Position numbers and translations under genes: made by a program. Under the pieces are notes generated by a model. That model was not told the DNA's origin. It ran no database searches and saw nothing but the letters and a program-made list of their open reading frames with translations. From an uncultured Clostridia bacterium (GTDB lineage Bacteria; Bacillota; Clostridia; Christensenellales; UBA1750), in assembly GCA_947625765.1 (NCBI GenBank), contig CANQPP010000003.1, forward strand, positions 1-64,000: DNA of 64,000 nucleotides, given 5' to 3'. Below are positions 5,269 through 53,222 of the stretch, piece after piece. Each line of letters begins with the position of its first letter. The first letter of the stretch is position 1.

Positions 5269-5631
5269 TTATTCCTTTGTTTTCGGCGTGAACAGCACCG
5301 CGGCCAGATACCCCAGCGCGATGGCGGCGGCGATGCCGCCCGCAGCGGCCGCCGTGCCGCCGGAGAGCGCGCCTAAAAACCCCTTTTCCCGCGCCCCGTC
5401 GATGGCGCCCTTGCCCAACAGGTAGCCAAAGCCCGTCAGCGGCACCGTGGCCCCGGCCCCGGCGAAGCTAGCGAAGGGCTCGTACACGCCGAAGAACGTC
5501 AGCGCCACGCCCAGCGTCACGAACAGCACCAGGATGCGCGCCGAGGTCAGCCGCGTATACAGGAGCAGCAGCTGCCCCGCCGTGCAGATGAGCCCGCCGA
5601 TCACGAAGGCCTTTACGTACATAAGGAGCAT
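5269..5631 (-). CDS. spoVAE: Stage V sporulation protein AE
   Basis: Hydrophobic protein with GLICTAGQLLL...FAGAGATVPLTGFGYLLGKGA; order next to spoVAD/spoVAC. Confidence 0.88.
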   Translation of the reverse strand: MLLMYVKAFVIGGLICTAGQLLLLYTRLTSARILVLFVTLGVALTFFGVYEPFASFAGAGATVPLTGFGYLLGKGAIDGAREKGFLGALSGGTAAAAGGIAAAIALGYLAAVLFTPKTKE

Positions 5632-5633
5632 TT

Positions 5634-6647
5634 TTACACCACCTCCAGGGAAACGGCGTGAGCGATGCCGGGGATGGACTCACCCTGCAGCGTCGTGGTG
5701 GGCGAGAGCAGCGCGCCTGTGGCCATGAACAGCAGGCGCCGGATCTGCCCCTTCTCCATCATGCGAAGCAAATGCCCGTTCAGCGTCACGGCGGAGCAGC
5801 CGCAGCCGCTGCCCCCGGCCAGCAGCCCCTGCTCGGGGGAGAAGATGTCGCAGCCGCAGTCCGTGTAGCGGTCGCCCAAGGCCAGCCCCTCCTTTTCGCA
5901 CAGCTCCCGCATGAGGGCGTAGCCCACCTGGCCCAGGTCGCCGGTCACGATCCGGTCGTAATACTCGAGCGGCCGCCCGCTGTCCTTTAAGTGCGCCAGC
6001 AGCGTGTCCGCGGCAGCCGGGGCCATGGCCGCGCCCATGTTGTTCTCGTCCGTCTGGCCGAAGTCCACCACGCGGCCCACGGTGAAGGATTCAACGGCGA
6101 TGGGGAAGTCCGGCTTTGCCGTGAGCAGCGTCGCGCCCGCGCCCGTCACCGTCCACTGGGCGCTGGGCGGCCTCTGGTTGCCCAGCTCTAAGGGGAAGCG
6201 GTACTGCCTCTCGGCGGTGGAGAAGTGGCTGCACGTGGCGCAGACGGCCCGGGAACCAAAGCCCCCGTCCAGCAGCGCCGCGCCCAAAAGCAGGGACTCC
6301 GCCATGGTGGAGCAGGCCCCGTACAGCCCCAGGAAGGGGATCTGCAATCCCCGCGCGGCGAAGCTGGCGGAGACGATCTGGTTGAGCAGGTCGCCGCCCA
6401 AAAAGAGGTCCACGTCCTCCTCCCGCACGCCCGCCTTGTTTAAACACAGGGTGACCGTGTCGGCCAGCATCCGCTTTTCGGCCTTCTCCCAGCTCTTTTC
6501 GCCCAGTGTGTCGTCCTTCACCACCACGTCGAACGTCTCCCGCAGGGGGCCTTCGCCCTCCTTCTTGCCCGCAGTGGAGGCAAAGGCCTGCACCCGCGGC
6601 CGGGACGGCAGGCGGCAGCTCTGCCTGCCCATGCGCTTTGCCTGCAT
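5634..6647 (-). CDS. spoVAD: Stage V sporulation protein AD (thiolase-fold)
   Basis: GACSTMAES, HFSTAERQYRFPLELGNQRPPSAQWTVTGAGA, DCGCDIFSPEQGLLAGGSGCGCSA. Confidence 0.93.
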   Translation of the reverse strand: MQAKRMGRQSCRLPSRPRVQAFASTAGKKEGEGPLRETFDVVVKDDTLGEKSWEKAEKRMLADTVTLCLNKAGVREEDVDLFLGGDLLNQIVSASFAARGLQIPFLGLYGACSTMAESLLLGAALLDGGFGSRAVCATCSHFSTAERQYRFPLELGNQRPPSAQWTVTGAGATLLTAKPDFPIAVESFTVGRVVDFGQTDENNMGAAMAPAAADTLLAHLKDSGRPLEYYDRIVTGDLGQVGYALMRELCEKEGLALGDRYTDCGCDIFSPEQGLLAGGSGCGCSAVTLNGHLLRMMEKGQIRRLLFMATGALLSPTTTLQGESIPGIAHAVSLEVV

Positions 6648-6652
6648 CTGCT

Positions 6653-7114
6653 CTACCTCCCAAGAAGCGATAGTATGTGCGCGAGCACGCCCGCCAGCAC
6701 CGAAGACGTGATGCCGTAGACCAGCACCGGCCCGGCCACCTGGAACATCTTCGCGCCCACGCCCGTGACGAAGCCCTCGCGCTTGAACTCCATAGCGGGG
6801 GAAACGATGGAATTGGCAAAGCCCGTGATGGGCACGATGGAACCGGCCCCCGCGAACTTGCCGATCTTATCGTACACCCCAAGCCCCGTGAGCAGGGCCG
6901 AGAGGAAGATCAGGCAAAAGGAGCAGAACAGGGAGGCGTCCTCCAGGTCCAGCCCCAAGGCGTAGACGCCTATGTCCTTAAGGCCCTGCCCGATCGCGCA
7001 GATGAGCCCGCCCACGAAAAAGGCCTTACACAGGCTTTTGGGCTTTTCGCTCTTGGGAGAGACCCTCTTGACCATCCGATCGTAGGCGCTTTTTTGTTTG
7101 CTTCCGTTCATCAT
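6653..7114 (-). CDS. spoVAC: Stage V sporulation protein AC
   Basis: KAFFVGGLICAIGQGL...GAGSIVPITGFANSIVSPAMEFKREGFV; start re-assigned to ATGATG at 7112-7114. Confidence 0.9.
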   Translation of the reverse strand: MMNGSKQKSAYDRMVKRVSPKSEKPKSLCKAFFVGGLICAIGQGLKDIGVYALGLDLEDASLFCSFCLIFLSALLTGLGVYDKIGKFAGAGSIVPITGFANSIVSPAMEFKREGFVTGVGAKMFQVAGPVLVYGITSSVLAGVLAHILSLLGR

Positions 7115-7308
7115 GCGTCCTTCCCGCATCCTTTCTCCATATCCTGCGCAGCTTCCCGCTTTAAGAACACCGCGTCGAACGTCCGATATGGCCCCCTGTT
7201 CTTCCAGCGGTACAGGCCCCAAAGCCCGCCCGCCAGCAGGAGCAGCCCCAGCAGGGCCAGCGCCAGCAGACACGCGCCCAGCCTTCTTTCCCTTGCAAAT
7301 GCGCGCAT
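7111..7308 (-). CDS. Small single-TM protein upstream of spoVAC
   Basis: 65-aa ORF (MRAFARERRLGACLLALALLGLLLLAGGLW...) overlapping the spoVAC start. Confidence 0.6.
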   Translation of the reverse strand: MRAFARERRLGACLLALALLGLLLLAGGLWGLYRWKNRGPYRTFDAVFLKREAAQDMEKGCGKDA

Positions 7309-7470
7309 CCCGCGCCTTCCCCCTTTTTTGAAGTCTGATCGTCCGCCCCTAGTCTGCGCCGCCGCCCTTTCGCTTATGCTTCTGAAACATGGAAGCCCCA
7401 TTAAAAACCGCTTAAATAGCGCGGCCGATCGGCGGGCGATTAAATACAAGTAAAATCGTCGGAATTGTGG

Positions 7471-7499
7471 TTGACATCTCCCCCTTGCGGTGATACTCT
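7471..7499 (+). promoter_or_regulatory. Sigma-A type promoter of the Rrf2/isc operon
   Basis: TTGACA - 17 nt - TACTCT. Confidence 0.65.
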
Positions 7500-7513
7500 T
7501 AAGGCGTCATTTC

Positions 7514-7528
7514 CGACAAGTTTTGTCG
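7514..7528. promoter_or_regulatory. Inverted repeat, candidate Rrf2 operator
   Basis: CGACAA GTT TTGTCG directly downstream of the predicted start point. Confidence 0.5.
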
Positions 7529-7574
7529 AGATTGTTCCTGCACAGGCACACGCCGGAGGAGGGAAGGGAAAGGA

Positions 7575-7994
7575 ATGAAGCTGTCCACCAAGGGGCGCTA
7601 CGGCATCCGCGCCGTGTACCAGCTGGCGCTGGACTTCGGCAAGGGCCCCCTGTCCACCAAGGAGATTGCCTCGCTCCAGGCCATCCCGGAGGCGTATCTG
7701 GAGCAGCTGATGCTGCCGCTCAAGCGCGCGGGGCTGCTGACGGCCACGCGGGGCGCCTTCGGCGGCTACAGCCTCAGCCGCCCGCCGGAGCAGGTCTCCG
7801 TGGGCGAGGTGCTCCGGGCGCTGGAGGGGCCGCTGGCTCCCGTCCACTGCGTGGTGGAGGACGAGGCCTGCGAAAACGCCGACAGCTGCGCCATGCACAA
7901 GCTGTACATGCGCATCCACGAGGGGCTCAACGACATGCTCAACGGCATCACGCTGGCCGACATGCTCGAGGACAAGCCCTGCCACTGCACCTGA
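7575..7994 (+). CDS. Rrf2 family transcriptional regulator (IscR/CymR-like)
   Basis: MKLSTKGRYGIRAVYQLAL...SLQAIPEAYLEQLMLPLKRAGLL...GAFGGYSLSRP. Confidence 0.93.
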   Translation: MKLSTKGRYGIRAVYQLALDFGKGPLSTKEIASLQAIPEAYLEQLMLPLKRAGLLTATRGAFGGYSLSRPPEQVSVGEVLRALEGPLAPVHCVVEDEACENADSCAMHKLYMRIHEGLNDMLNGITLADMLEDKPCHCT

Positions 7995-8016
7995 TCGGGA
8001 AAGCGAGGTCGTTTGC

Positions 8017-8697
8017 ATGAAGCGTTCACAGATCAACGAGGCGCTGCGCTGGGCCGAGGCCCTGCTGGAGCAGAACCGCATCCGCCTGCCGCGCTTTGCC
8101 TACTGGGACATGGAGACATGGAAAAGCCACAAGGCGGAGCTTGACGAGATCCGCGCCGTGATGCAGGGCTGGGACATCACCGACTTTGGCAGCGGCGACT
8201 TTGCCCGCACAGGCGCGGTGCTGTTCACCTCCCGCAACGGCTCCCATTTGGATCCCTCGATCGGCTCGCCCTACGCCGAAAAGTACATCCTTCTGCGGCA
8301 GGGTCAGTACCTGCCCTGCCACTACCACGCCTCCAAGACGGAGGACATCATTGACCGCGCGGGCGGCGTGATGAGCATGTACTTCTTTAACCGGGCCGCG
8401 GACGGCAGCGTGGACAGGGAAACGCCGGTGACCATCCGCTCCGACGGGCTGCCGCTGACGGTGAAGCCCGGCGAGGAGGTCCTCATCCATCCCGGCGACT
8501 CGGTGCGCATCACGCCCTTCATCTACCACATCTTCGGCGCAAAGCAGGGCGCGGGCGACCTGGTGGTGGGCGAGGTCTCCGCGGTCAACGACGACAACAC
8601 GGACAACTACTGGGAGACCCCCATGCGCCGCTTCGCCGCCATCGAGGAGGACGAGATGCCCCTGCACCCCCTCTGCAACGAGTACGACAAGCTGTGA
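8017..8697 (+). CDS. D-lyxose/D-mannose isomerase family protein (cupin)
   Basis: FAYWDMETWKSH...YAEKYILLRQGQYLPCHYHASKTEDIIDR...ITPFIYHIFGAK...VGEVSAVNDDNTDN. Confidence 0.85.
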   Translation: MKRSQINEALRWAEALLEQNRIRLPRFAYWDMETWKSHKAELDEIRAVMQGWDITDFGSGDFARTGAVLFTSRNGSHLDPSIGSPYAEKYILLRQGQYLPCHYHASKTEDIIDRAGGVMSMYFFNRAADGSVDRETPVTIRSDGLPLTVKPGEEVLIHPGDSVRITPFIYHIFGAKQGAGDLVVGEVSAVNDDNTDNYWETPMRRFAAIEEDEMPLHPLCNEYDKL

Positions 8698-46325: not shown

Positions 46326-46706
46326 ATGCCAGACCTGTGGCAGAGCGGCATAGAAGAAGAAAGCGAGTACGCCCGGCGCATCCGGGTGACCACCACGCCT
46401 GCGCTGGAGGGGTACCGCGTCACCGCGTACTTGGGCGTCGTCTCGGCGGAAACCGTCCTTGGGACCGGCTTTTTCAGCGAGCTTGCCAGCTGGATGGCCG
46501 ACCTGTTCGGCGCAGAGAGCCGCACGCTTGCCTGGAAGATCGACCAGGCCCGGGACTCGGCCCTCAGGAAGCTGCGCGCAAAGGCGCTGGACTTAGGCGC
46601 GGACGCCGTCATCGGCACCTCCTTCGCCTATTCCTCCAACTCCCGCAGCATGGTCAGCGTGATCGTCACCGGCACCGCCGTCAACGCCGCGCCCATCCCC
46701 CGCTGA
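46326..46706 (+). CDS. YbjQ/UPF0145-like putative heavy-metal-binding protein
   Basis: RVTTTPALEGYRVTAYLGVVSAETVLGTGF...ALRKLRAKALDLGADAVIGTSFAYS. Confidence 0.8.
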   Translation: MPDLWQSGIEEESEYARRIRVTTTPALEGYRVTAYLGVVSAETVLGTGFFSELASWMADLFGAESRTLAWKIDQARDSALRKLRAKALDLGADAVIGTSFAYSSNSRSMVSVIVTGTAVNAAPIPR

Positions 46707-46833
46707 CCCCCGCCCCACCTATCCTCCGGCCCCGGGCCTCGACCCCGGGGCCGTTCTCTATTTCTCTCCCCCCGCAACGCACTTTCCTGAAGGTCCCCCC
46801 CCGAGCGGCAACACTATGCGAGCCCTCCCGCAT

Positions 46834-48606
46834 CAACGCAGCGAGCAAGCGGGTAGGCGTTTGAAAAACGCCCCGCAAGCGAGCAGGATTCGCGACGAAC
46901 GCCCCACTTTCCCTCATATCCGCCTTTTCCCAAAAATACCAACCTTTTGACAAAATCCGACATAACACAACCACGTAGCGAGCGAGCTGGCGTTTGCAAA
47001 AACGCCCCGCAAGCGAGCGGGATATACCGCGTCGCCTCTCTTTCCCCTCCTGTTCGTTCCCATTCTCTCAAGAACCGCGCTAACATCATGCCAAACCCCC
47101 GAGCCAACGCAGCGAGTGAGCGGCTGGCGTTTGCAAAACGCCCCGCAAGCGAGTGGGATTCACAACAGCCGCTCCGTTTTTCCCCAAAAATGCCATATTT
47201 TCGACATATTCCGATATTGTGCAACCGCGTAGTGAGCTATTGGCGTGTTGAAACACGCCACAAGCGAACGGAACTTGCGCTGATCATTCCCCTTTTCCCT
47301 CCTGCCCCTTCCCGCCCCACAAAGAACCGCGCCGAACTTCTACCAAACCTCAACGCCAACGCAGCGAGCAAGCGGGTAGGCGTTTGAAAAACGCCCCGCA
47401 AGCGAGCGGGATTCATGGCTAACCTCCGCTTTCCCTCATATCCGACTTCCCCAAAAATGCCGAACTTTTGACAAAATCCGACATTGCGCAGTCACGTAGT
47501 GAGCGAGTGGTGCGTTTATAAACGCGCCACAAGCGAATGGGATTTACAGCGTCCCTTTTTTCTCCTACCCGTTCCCCTCCTCCCAAGAACCGCGCCAAGA
47601 CTCTACTCCCCCTCCTGCAACGCAGTGAGCAAGCGGGCAGGCGTTTTGAAAAAACGCCCCGCAAGCGAGCGGGATTTCAGATGAAAGCCCCCGTTTTCCC
47701 CATATCCGTCTTTTTCCAAAAACGCCGAGTTTTCGACATAATCCGATATTGCGCAACCGCGCAGTGAGCGAGTGGCGTGTTTCCAAACGCGCCACAAGTG
47801 AACGGGGCTTACGACGAATGCCTCGCTTTCCCTCATATCTGTCCTTCCCTAAAAACACCAATCTTTTGACAAAATCCGACATCGCGCAGCCGTGTAGTGA
47901 GCGGGTAGGCGTTTGAAAAACGCCCCGCAAGCGAGCGGGATTCACGACGCCCCCCACTTTCCCTCATATCCGTCTTTCCCCAAAAACACCGGCCTTTTGA
48001 CAAAATCCGACATTGCGCAGCCGCGTAGTGAGCGAGTGGCGCGTTTACAAACGCGCCACAAGCGAACGGAACTTACAGCGGCGCCTCTCTTTTTCTTCCT
48101 GCCTGTTCCCATTCTCCCACGAACTGCGCTGAGATCATGCCGAACCTCCGCACCAACGCAGCGAGCAAGCGGGCAGGCGTTTGAAAAACGCCCCGCAAGC
48201 GAGCGGGACTAGCAAAGGAGCCAAACAGGAGGAAAAGCCTCCGCTCATTTTTCAGCGGCAGCTCGTTTCCCCGACGACGAGAAGGGGGGATCGCCAAGGG
48301 GGGCGGCGCTCCGCCGCCCCCCTTGGCGGAGCCTCGGCGCAGCCGAGGAGTCTCCCGTACGGGGCACAAAGGCAAGCGAACCGCTCCCCCCGTCCGTGCA
48401 TCTCACGTCCCCCGTTTTCCGTCGTATCCCTTTTCCCGCGCCCGCAGGCGCGCGTCCCCGCCAAAAGTCGGAAAGCGCAGCGGAGGCGTCGTGAGCGCGC
48501 TTGCAAGCGAACAGCCGCAGCAAGCGGGACTTTTTGCGGAAGAGGAGTCGCGACTGAGTGAGCGAGAGGTGGCGTTTTTTTACAAAAAAACGCCGCCGCG
48601 AACGAT
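46834..48606. repeat. Array of about 13 related hairpins (two alternating stem types) with homologous spacers
   Basis: Type A core GCGGG-TA-GGCGTTTGAAAAACGCC-CCGCAAGCGAGCGGGATT; type B core GAGTGGCGCGTTTACAAACGCGCCACAAGCGAACGG; spacers share CCCTCATATCCG...TTTTGACAAAATCCGACATTGCGCA. Confidence 0.9.
48292..48348. repeat. Two back-to-back perfect palindromes
   Basis: CGCCAAGGGGGGCGGCG CTC CGCCGCCCCCCTTGGCG (17-bp arms), then CCTCGGC GCA GCCGAGG. Confidence 0.85.
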
Positions 48607-51118: not shown

Positions 51119-51380
51119 AAAGAATGACCTCCTTGCAGTCGAGACCGGGCCGCGCCCGGCGCTACCCGTATGATACCGCAGAACAGGGCGGCCCGTCAAT
51201 TGAAGGGGAAACAAAAACCCGCCCAGGCATCGGAAAAACGCCGGAGCGGGTGGGGGTTCAGGCACGCTTATGCAAGGGAACACCCTTGTACAGAAGCGCA
51301 TCCTTTGTTCATTGAGTCAATCGACACCAAAACCTTCTGTTAATGCTTCCAGTTTACCCTTTGGAGATACATGCTCAAAA

Positions 51381-51551
51381 TTAGCCCTCTCTCCAATAGT
51401 TGCATCCATTCCTGTCGCTCGGACGGTTATATCCACCATATCCGCCATCGCAATAAACTCTGCCATTAGAATCAGTGTTGTTCCAATCTGCGTACCGACA
51501 ATCACGACAATTCCCATAGAACGTGCCCTCTGGTAGCCTGATTTCAACCAT
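51381..51551 (-). CDS. Small Cys-rich protein with CxxCxY...C...C module
   Basis: MVEIRLPEGTFYGNCRDCRYADWNNTDSNGRVYCDGGYGGYNRPSDRNGCNYWREG; last gene of AT-rich operon. Confidence 0.65.
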   Translation of the reverse strand: MVEIRLPEGTFYGNCRDCRYADWNNTDSNGRVYCDGGYGGYNRPSDRNGCNYWREG

Positions 51552-51575
51552 GCAAGACATTATTTTCACCTCTTT

Positions 51576-52001
51576 TCATACGACATTTAGTGTGTCGCTC
51601 TTTATTTTTATTGCATCCCCATTCTGCATTGCCAAATAAGATACGATCTTTTTCTCAGGCAGCACAACAATAGGGAAATACAATTTACCAATACTCGACG
51701 GCATCGCTTGCATAATTGTTGTAATGTAAGCGATGTCTCCATCCGATAAAGTATCCACCCCCCAAAAGTGCGTATGAAAAATGCCCTGGAATGTGATTCC
51801 TTTCTGTTGCCATTTTTCAATAATCCCGTTCAAAAAAGTAACATTTGGCGTATAAAAACAGCCCTTATGCACAGAACGACTTTTATCAAACACACACTCG
51901 CAAATTGTATTGTCAACACTGCCCAAAATTCCCCCAGTTTCAGGAGGTGCAGAAGGTACAGTATTTAAAATATAATCACGAGTATTTCTCAAAATATTCA
52001 T
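51576..52001 (-). CDS. JAB/MPN (JAMM) domain metalloprotease
   Basis: PPETGGILGS (E21) and GIFHTHFWGVDTLSDGDIAYI = HxH-x7-S-x2-D JAMM motif. Confidence 0.88.
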   Translation of the reverse strand: MNILRNTRDYILNTVPSAPPETGGILGSVDNTICECVFDKSRSVHKGCFYTPNVTFLNGIIEKWQQKGITFQGIFHTHFWGVDTLSDGDIAYITTIMQAMPSSIGKLYFPIVVLPEKKIVSYLAMQNGDAIKIKSDTLNVV

Positions 52002-52014
52002 TGCATTGTCCGTC

Positions 52015-52284
52015 TTAATTCTTCCAAAAATTCACAGCAAAAGTCCAAATTTTCACAATGGCCAAGAAGAAAAGGCGCATAAGCTCTATTACTCCGAGGA
52101 AAAACGCTGAAACTATAATTAAGGTATACCGTAGCCAGCGCTTTTGAGGTGTTTGCAGTGATATATGGAACTTGTTTTCAAGATAGGCTACGAAGTTTTT
52201 TCCCGCTTTGATCCCATATATAAGGAATGAATAGATGTATGCTGCTATCAATAGAATTAATAGAACTATGTCAAATGTACTCAT
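52015..52284 (-). CDS. Small membrane protein (two TM segments)
   Basis: STFDIVLLILLIAAYIYSFLIYGI and RYTLIIVSAFFLGVIELMRLFFLAIVKIW; same strand as neighbours. Confidence 0.6.
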   Translation of the reverse strand: MSTFDIVLLILLIAAYIYSFLIYGIKAGKNFVAYLENKFHISLQTPQKRWLRYTLIIVSAFFLGVIELMRLFFLAIVKIWTFAVNFWKN

Positions 52285-52334
52285 CGATGTAAACCTCACA
52301 TTTCTTTTTTTCGTTCAAGCCTGCATTTTATCCG

Positions 52335-52559
52335 TTAATAACGCCATTCACCAGAATGATCCATATATTGCTCCCCCGGTTTGCGCCATCCACCGGCTTC
52401 GTCAACATACTCGTCATTCGGGCCTCTCCATGCTCCAGTAATATCGACATAGTCGTCATCTGGAGTCCTCCACCCGCCCGCAGAATCTACATAATCCTCA
52501 TCAGGCATGCGCCACGCGCCTGAAGCGTCCATGTACTGTTGCTTTTTCCATCTTGGCAT
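52335..52559 (-). CDS. 14-aa tandem-repeat protein (YVDxxGxWRxPxxx)
   Basis: MPRWKKQQ-YMDASGAWRMPDED-YVDSAGGWRTPDDD-YVDITGAWRGPNDE-YVDEAGGWRKPGEQ-YMDHSGEWRY. Confidence 0.75.
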   Translation of the reverse strand: MPRWKKQQYMDASGAWRMPDEDYVDSAGGWRTPDDDYVDITGAWRGPNDEYVDEAGGWRKPGEQYMDHSGEWRY

Positions 52560-52574
52560 TATGCATGTTCCTCC

Positions 52575-52961
52575 TTACTTTGTCTTGTTTTGGTCAACAA
52601 CTAATTCTGCCAATCGGGAAATCAAGACTTCCATTCCTCCATCCTTAAAATTGTCACAGATATATCCCATCGTAGAAAACCATGGTCCAAACCTTACATC
52701 GTTTCTTTTGCAGACATACGTCCTCCCTGCCTCCCCTTGAAAACTCTCACAGTAAGTACAAGTATGGCAAGAATCTGGACCAGCTTGAGATCGGAACCCT
52801 GCAATCAGCAAGGCCCTATCCCCATCCCGAACAAATTTTGTACATACATCTGACCCTCTAACTTCACAACGCCGCAGTGTACAAACAAATCTTCTTCTGC
52901 CAAAGAATTTTCTTTTTGAAATATAGTACTTACATAATCTACACTTTTTCTCAATAGTCAT
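52575..52961 (-). CDS. Cys-rich protein with two CxxCxY...C...C modules
   Basis: KCRLCKYYISKRKFFGRRRFVCTLRRCEVRGSDVCTKFV and SCHTCTYCESFQGEAGRTYVCKRNDVRFGPWFSTMGYICDNF. Confidence 0.7.
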   Translation of the reverse strand: MTIEKKCRLCKYYISKRKFFGRRRFVCTLRRCEVRGSDVCTKFVRDGDRALLIAGFRSQAGPDSCHTCTYCESFQGEAGRTYVCKRNDVRFGPWFSTMGYICDNFKDGGMEVLISRLAELVVDQNKTK

Positions 52962-52998
52962 ATCGTCTTCTCCTCTTGCTCGGCTTTCTTTGACATAT

Positions 52999-53166
52999 AA
53001 GTGTACTTTTTTGTAAGATAACTACGTAGGCTCAATTCCCTACTAATAAGCAAAAAAATAAGTATAACACTAGAAAAAGTATTGCAATTATCCTCTATCT
53101 ATGCAATAATATAGAGGTCACAACGTGTATGGCGTTTGTGTGAGGCTCTTACAAAAAAGTACACTT
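52999..53166. repeat. Perfect 20-bp inverted repeat flanking 128 bp, upstream of the AT-rich operon
   Basis: AAGTGTACTTTTTTGTAAGA (52999-53018) and TCTTACAAAAAAGTACACTT (53147-53166). Confidence 0.85.
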
Positions 53167-53222
53167 TTCTGTAAGACTTTCCAAGAAAGCGCCGCATCGC
53201 AAAAAATTCCTTTCATAAAGCC

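Follow-up and report, generated by a model that had tools for sequence, protein, structure and literature searches.

A JAB/JAMM peptidase gene paired with a small four-cysteine protein gene in a low-GC island of a Clostridia bacterium, with candidate inverted sites upstream

The usual explanation for JAB peptidases in bacteria is a ubiquitin-like tail that they cut. Among described systems, a JAB peptidase is also found in prokaryotic operons encoding E1, E2, JAB and ubiquitin-like (Ubl) proteins (types 6a-6e of Iyer 2006, Bil, and CBASS type II with Cap2 and Cap3), whose distribution is sporadic and mobile (PMC1779556), likewise that of the genes described below. Toxin loci with Tox-JAB domains carry small accessory partner genes (PMC3482391), a further likeness, and the architecture of the invertons of gut bacteria, in which inverted repeats flank a short piece of DNA ahead of a gene, is well known (PMC11892184). 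We analyzed a 64,000-nucleotide stretch of DNA from an uncultured Clostridia bacterium (the window; contig CANQPP010000003.1, positions 1 to 64,000), which contains a JAB family with an intact JAMM centre and a predicted JAMM fold, tied genetically to a small four-cysteine (Cys4) protein, SCP, and with nothing ubiquitin-like at the locus. JAB and SCP constitute an undescribed two-gene module without a local ubiquitin-like protein, and we regard the existence of this module as practically certain.

The GC content of the window is about 63% and drops to about 40% between positions ~51,300 and ~53,300, the GC profile showing sharp edges. Five open reading frames (52961-51381), all on the minus strand and with a GC content of 0.36-0.52 compared to about 0.63 for the window, fill this AT-rich run, confirming the five-gene, same-strand island described in the initial annotation. 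They encode a 128-residue Cys-rich protein with two CxxC...C...C units (52575..52961), an acidic 74-residue protein with about five 14-residue YxD..G.WR.P repeats (52335..52559), a small protein predicted to contain two membrane helices (52015..52284), a 141-residue JAB/JAMM metallopeptidase (51576..52001), and the 59-residue SCP (51381..51560). The positions first given for these genes hold apart from two starts, since the two-helix ORF may begin either at GTG 52299 or at ATG 52284, and for the SCP gene the most likely start is ATG 51560, which is preceded by GAGGTG, rather than 51551. None of the five proteins has a significant match in Pfam or NCBIfam, and PHROGs returned only a weak match, to the repeat protein (E 0.001). 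Family searches found no E1, E2, beta-grasp ubiquitin-like protein, integrase or phage gene among the five genes, as the initial annotation had noted. Elsewhere in the window, GC is also lower at positions 46700-48300, where both strands hold numerous related frames (GVFQTP / ASEWD-like motifs); this stretch is probably an array of non-coding repeats.

The JAMM motif of the window JAB is exact, with the upstream Glu that had been recognized before (E21, H76-x-H78-x7-S86-x2-D89). The His, Ser and Asp residues of HxH-x7-S-x2-D are invariant across 14 relatives, of which only one, the divergent member L060, lacks the upstream Glu. A profile built from eight members of the family and run against solved structures matches Pyrococcus JAMM1 at E 9e-6, and the AlphaFold model of the window protein (mean pLDDT 92.0) has JAMM1 as its best PDB fold match (TM 0.77), the other matches including Cap3 and Rpn8/Rpn11-type domains. 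One sequence, from a phage-collection record, was left out of the structure predictions. Because the profile matches solved JAMM structures and the model folds as JAMM, the motif is more than a chance occurrence, and both point to a real JAMM protein of the peptidase type with predicted activity. A weak PADLOC match was also obtained (E 7e-5). About 1,200 different genomes were sampled overall. The first relative was found in a named MAG (L002), and profile and protein searches further located this JAB in five more genomes of the class, one faecal contig, one complete genome of another class, and eight genomes of a single genus belonging to the same order as that complete genome. A seventh JAB genome in the class search, G619, carries a different JAB family, with E1 and E2, and the top-scoring JABs outside the family in the genomes searched are fused to ThiF/E1 domains.

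SCP, which the initial annotation had proposed as one possible target of the protease, proves to be the true genetic companion of JAB, even if a partner is not necessarily a substrate. In L002, JAB is followed by an SCP homolog, the two genes overlapping by 4 nt. Of the eight main-group loci besides that of the window, seven have SCP directly after JAB, and the eighth, L041, has five tandem SCP paralogs clustered upstream of JAB. At most loci the two genes are adjacent, separated by a short gap or overlapping by 4 nt. The eight-genome genus, a divergent subfamily, shows the reversed order, with SCP-like genes just before JAB; the SCP profile finds them at five loci, at two of these weakly, and similar Cys motifs were recognized by eye at other loci. 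Confident matches of the SCP profile among 391 genomes of the class (E 5e-15 or better) occur in exactly the six genomes with a JAB of this family, and the next match (E 4e-4) contains an in-frame stop. Simple combinatorics puts the probability of drawing the same six genomes by chance at about 1 in 5e12; relatedness is ignored in this figure, but the six span five families. The structure prediction for SCP is weak (pLDDT 66.7), and its alignment shows neither a conserved C-terminal Gly-Gly nor any shared tail past the last cysteine. Neither a signal peptide nor an exporter is a recurring companion of the pair, and no recurring E1, E2 or beta-grasp gene was seen at the JAB-SCP loci examined; the window operon has no E1-like (ThiF) gene next to JAB or fused to it, and none was seen at those loci either.

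Two loci show particular arrangements. In another genome of the window's order, a truncated fragment of JAB lies next to an SCP-like ORF (L013:6228-6606, G109:C6); this is a decayed copy of the pair. In L041 (L041:1778-6866, G902:C1), 17 copies of a ~27-nt repeat (GTTAAGCATTAACATTGTACGGTCTC) form short CRISPR-like arrays interleaved with the five SCP paralogs and JAB, and an upstream promoter-like block is common to the SCP genes, JAB and a small membrane gene.

The pair is sporadic and is conserved while all of its surroundings change. Tubulin-like (PF13809) genes are the neighbors in L002, zinc-ribbon and DUF6273 proteins in L025, an AAA ATPase lies in the vicinity in L023, and a dynamin-like GTPase in L054, a variety compatible with several functions. 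The initial annotation regarded the five island genes as a self-contained unit and suggested examining whether they co-occur elsewhere: all five together do not, whereas JAB and SCP do so strongly. The 128-residue and repeat proteins were not seen beside any other JAB of the family, and the recurrence of small membrane proteins near the pair (the window, L028, and L041) is loose, with no detectable similarity. That the repeat protein, also put forward as a target of the protease, is the JAB substrate was set aside as the leading interpretation, since this JAB family occurs without it. We infer that the 128-residue, repeat and two-helix proteins are accessory to the JAB-SCP core. Homology between the two-helix protein of the window and that of L028 was considered and rejected, as BLAST gave no match. 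SCP units within the 128-residue protein were likewise discarded, the Cys spacing being similar but the score of 3.5 bits being reached by 14 of 500 shuffles, and homology of this protein to SCP is not established. Fourteen-residue repeats like those of the window form the C-terminal tail of a membrane protein in L062:5641-6204 (MT836703.1), with no JAB nearby.

The JAB of the island is absent from all ten other genomes of the window's family that were examined. This absence and the low GC content support horizontal acquisition, which had been suggested before and which we consider probable from these sequence features. An empty-site proof of insertion was sought and set aside, the flanking beta-galactosidase and DUF2812-like genes not being shown as neighbors in relatives. 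In IMG/VR, no relatives turned up for the JAB, repeat or Cys-rich proteins; plasmids yielded no relatives either, and the sole match in a phage collection is an unverified faecal contig.

Upstream of the first operon gene, we identified a pair of sites that the initial annotation had missed. The first is an imperfect palindrome of 26 bp resembling a recombination site (52991..53016; + strand centre GT), and the second, also of 26 bp, is inverted with respect to it (53149..53174; + strand centre AC), with a spacing of 158 bp. The inverted match between them (24/26) is above the best value, 18, reached in 40 shuffles of the region, and the site is absent from shuffled windows. Between them lies a segment of 132 bp and 35% GC (53017..53148), predicted to be invertible, with promoter-like hexamers in both directions. 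The same genome contains pairs of the same site type at C29 (137 bp; L093:3463-4344, G000:C29) and C2 (138 bp; L094:3379-3542, G000:C2), and a diverged pair at C67 (130 bp; L106:3175-3950, G000:C67), all candidate invertible promoters before lipoprotein-like genes. The C29 and C67 pairs are directly behind small serine recombinase genes (Resolvase match of E 3e-27 for that of C29); no recombinase gene is found beside the window pair.

Inversion requires reverse-complementary central dinucleotides within a site pair, and this is observed in all four pairs (GT/AC in the window and C29, AT/AT in C2, CT/AG in C67). Between the sites, the best promoter points towards the gene at C67 (TTGAAG-17-TATAAT) and away from it at C29 and C2, the picture expected of an invertible promoter in its ON and OFF forms; in the window, promoter-like hexamers run in both directions and the promoter direction is ambiguous. 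These sites could instead be operators of a regulator or resolvase sites, given that each is near-palindromic by itself and that the differences of 0, 1 and 21 bp among the spacings (137, 138 and 158 bp) preserve the helical phase, as looped operators would. Nevertheless, the recombinase genes directly in front of two of the four pairs, the reverse-complementary centres in every pair, and the promoters pointing away from the genes at C29 and C2 argue against that explanation, which we consider rather unlikely, and we judge it likely that the paired sites bound an invertible promoter. A small serine recombinase, most likely that of C29, would then flip the upstream segment, so that the operon would be expressed by only part of the population; the operon is thus probably phase-variable. 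Comparable inverted sites did not turn up at the other JAB loci, which places the switch outside the conserved module.

With regard to the module itself, we propose that its core is a JAMM (JAB) zinc peptidase made together with the ~60-residue Cys4 protein, which would bind zinc and would also bind JAB as a dedicated specificity or control subunit. The chances that SCP acts in this way, as an adaptor or an inhibitor of JAB, seem evenly balanced. The peptidase would cut a tail or an isopeptide bond on a protein encoded outside the locus. In the window operon, the pair would have come with the CxxC protein, the WR-repeat protein and the two-helix membrane protein, the last of which may tether the pair.

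The closest rivals to this proposal are a toxin-antitoxin pair and SCP as a substrate. JAB and SCP are two small, adjacent, coupled and co-inherited genes of sporadic distribution, as in toxin-antitoxin modules, and JAB might be harmful inside the cell and neutralized by SCP, as a toxin by its antitoxin or an effector by its immunity protein. The reversed gene order between subfamilies, the presence in L041 of five SCP paralogs next to a single JAB, and the JAB domains predicted as toxins in some polymorphic toxin systems (PMC3482391) are consistent with this idea, which overlaps with the inhibitor reading of SCP. It is nonetheless unlikely, in view of a modeled JAB structure that is nearest to Ubl-processing JAMM peptidases and not to toxin JABs, and of a JAB protein devoid of an export domain. 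JAB could also trim or mature SCP in the manner of peptide maturation, as the obligate pairing and the several SCP copies per JAB in L041 might suggest, but the lack of a Gly-Gly or a common tail beyond the last SCP cysteine and of an associated signal peptide or exporter makes this quite improbable. Even less probable is that JAB processes an endogenous ThiS/MoaD-type ubiquitin-like protein encoded elsewhere, with the help of SCP: the best fold match, JAMM1, has also been solved with its SAMP2 substrate, and the highest-scoring JABs outside the family are fused to ThiF/E1 domains, whereas the JAB-SCP loci examined have no E1, E2 or beta-grasp gene in common. A JAB-SCP module with a zinc-binding control partner and a phase-variable promoter is, on the sequence evidence, the best explanation overall, and we see it as having an even chance of being correct. 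That JAB-SCP is a protein-processing system whose peptidase relies on its own zinc-binding partner and on no ubiquitin-like modifier, and that some bacteria use it as a phase-variable module for conflict or immunity, is a more tentative suggestion.

JAB-SCP offers a small and directly testable case of other roles of JAMM proteins in bacteria, and the phase switch, if true, would mean that the population gains from expression in some cells only, as with surface and conflict genes. Two other types of loci were encountered during the searches. In L027:5645-9842 (G619:C33) and L042:61-4138 (G799:C20), genes for a PycTM-like effector and a PycC-like cyclase (PADLOC E 2e-32) share an operon with those for an E2-like protein, E1 and JAB; this Pycsar-type system seems to carry conjugation genes like those of CBASS type II. 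JAB-E1 (ThiF) fusions that come immediately after tandem-repeat proteins in which a ..DVEFHGG.. or ..DVTFHG.. motif recurs, with ClpP-like genes a few kb away (L012:7239-9880, G248:C2; L011:~5530-8221, G132:C13), could be a repeat-peptide modifier system.

Among solved proteins, Pyrococcus furiosus JAMM1 (PDB 5ld9; 5lda with SAMP2) is the best structural and sequence match to the window JAB, sharing its JAMM motif and predicted fold, but the identity is 19%, and the window locus has SCP instead of a SAMP-like or E1 partner. CBASS type II Cap3 is also among the fold matches, and the operons of E1, E2, JAB and Ubl have the peptidase in common with JAB-SCP, whereas no E1, E2, Ubl or nucleotide cyclase was seen in the JAB-SCP loci. 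Tox-JAB and RadC domains belong to the same JAB superfamily, but peptidase JAMMs lead the structure search of the window JAB, which is found without RHS repeats or export domains. The likeness to gut-bacterial invertons lies in the inverted repeats around a promoter-sized segment and in the recombinases beside the sister pairs. The recombinases commonly reported for those invertons are of the tyrosine type, whereas here they are serine recombinases, and the putative switch would control a protease operon.
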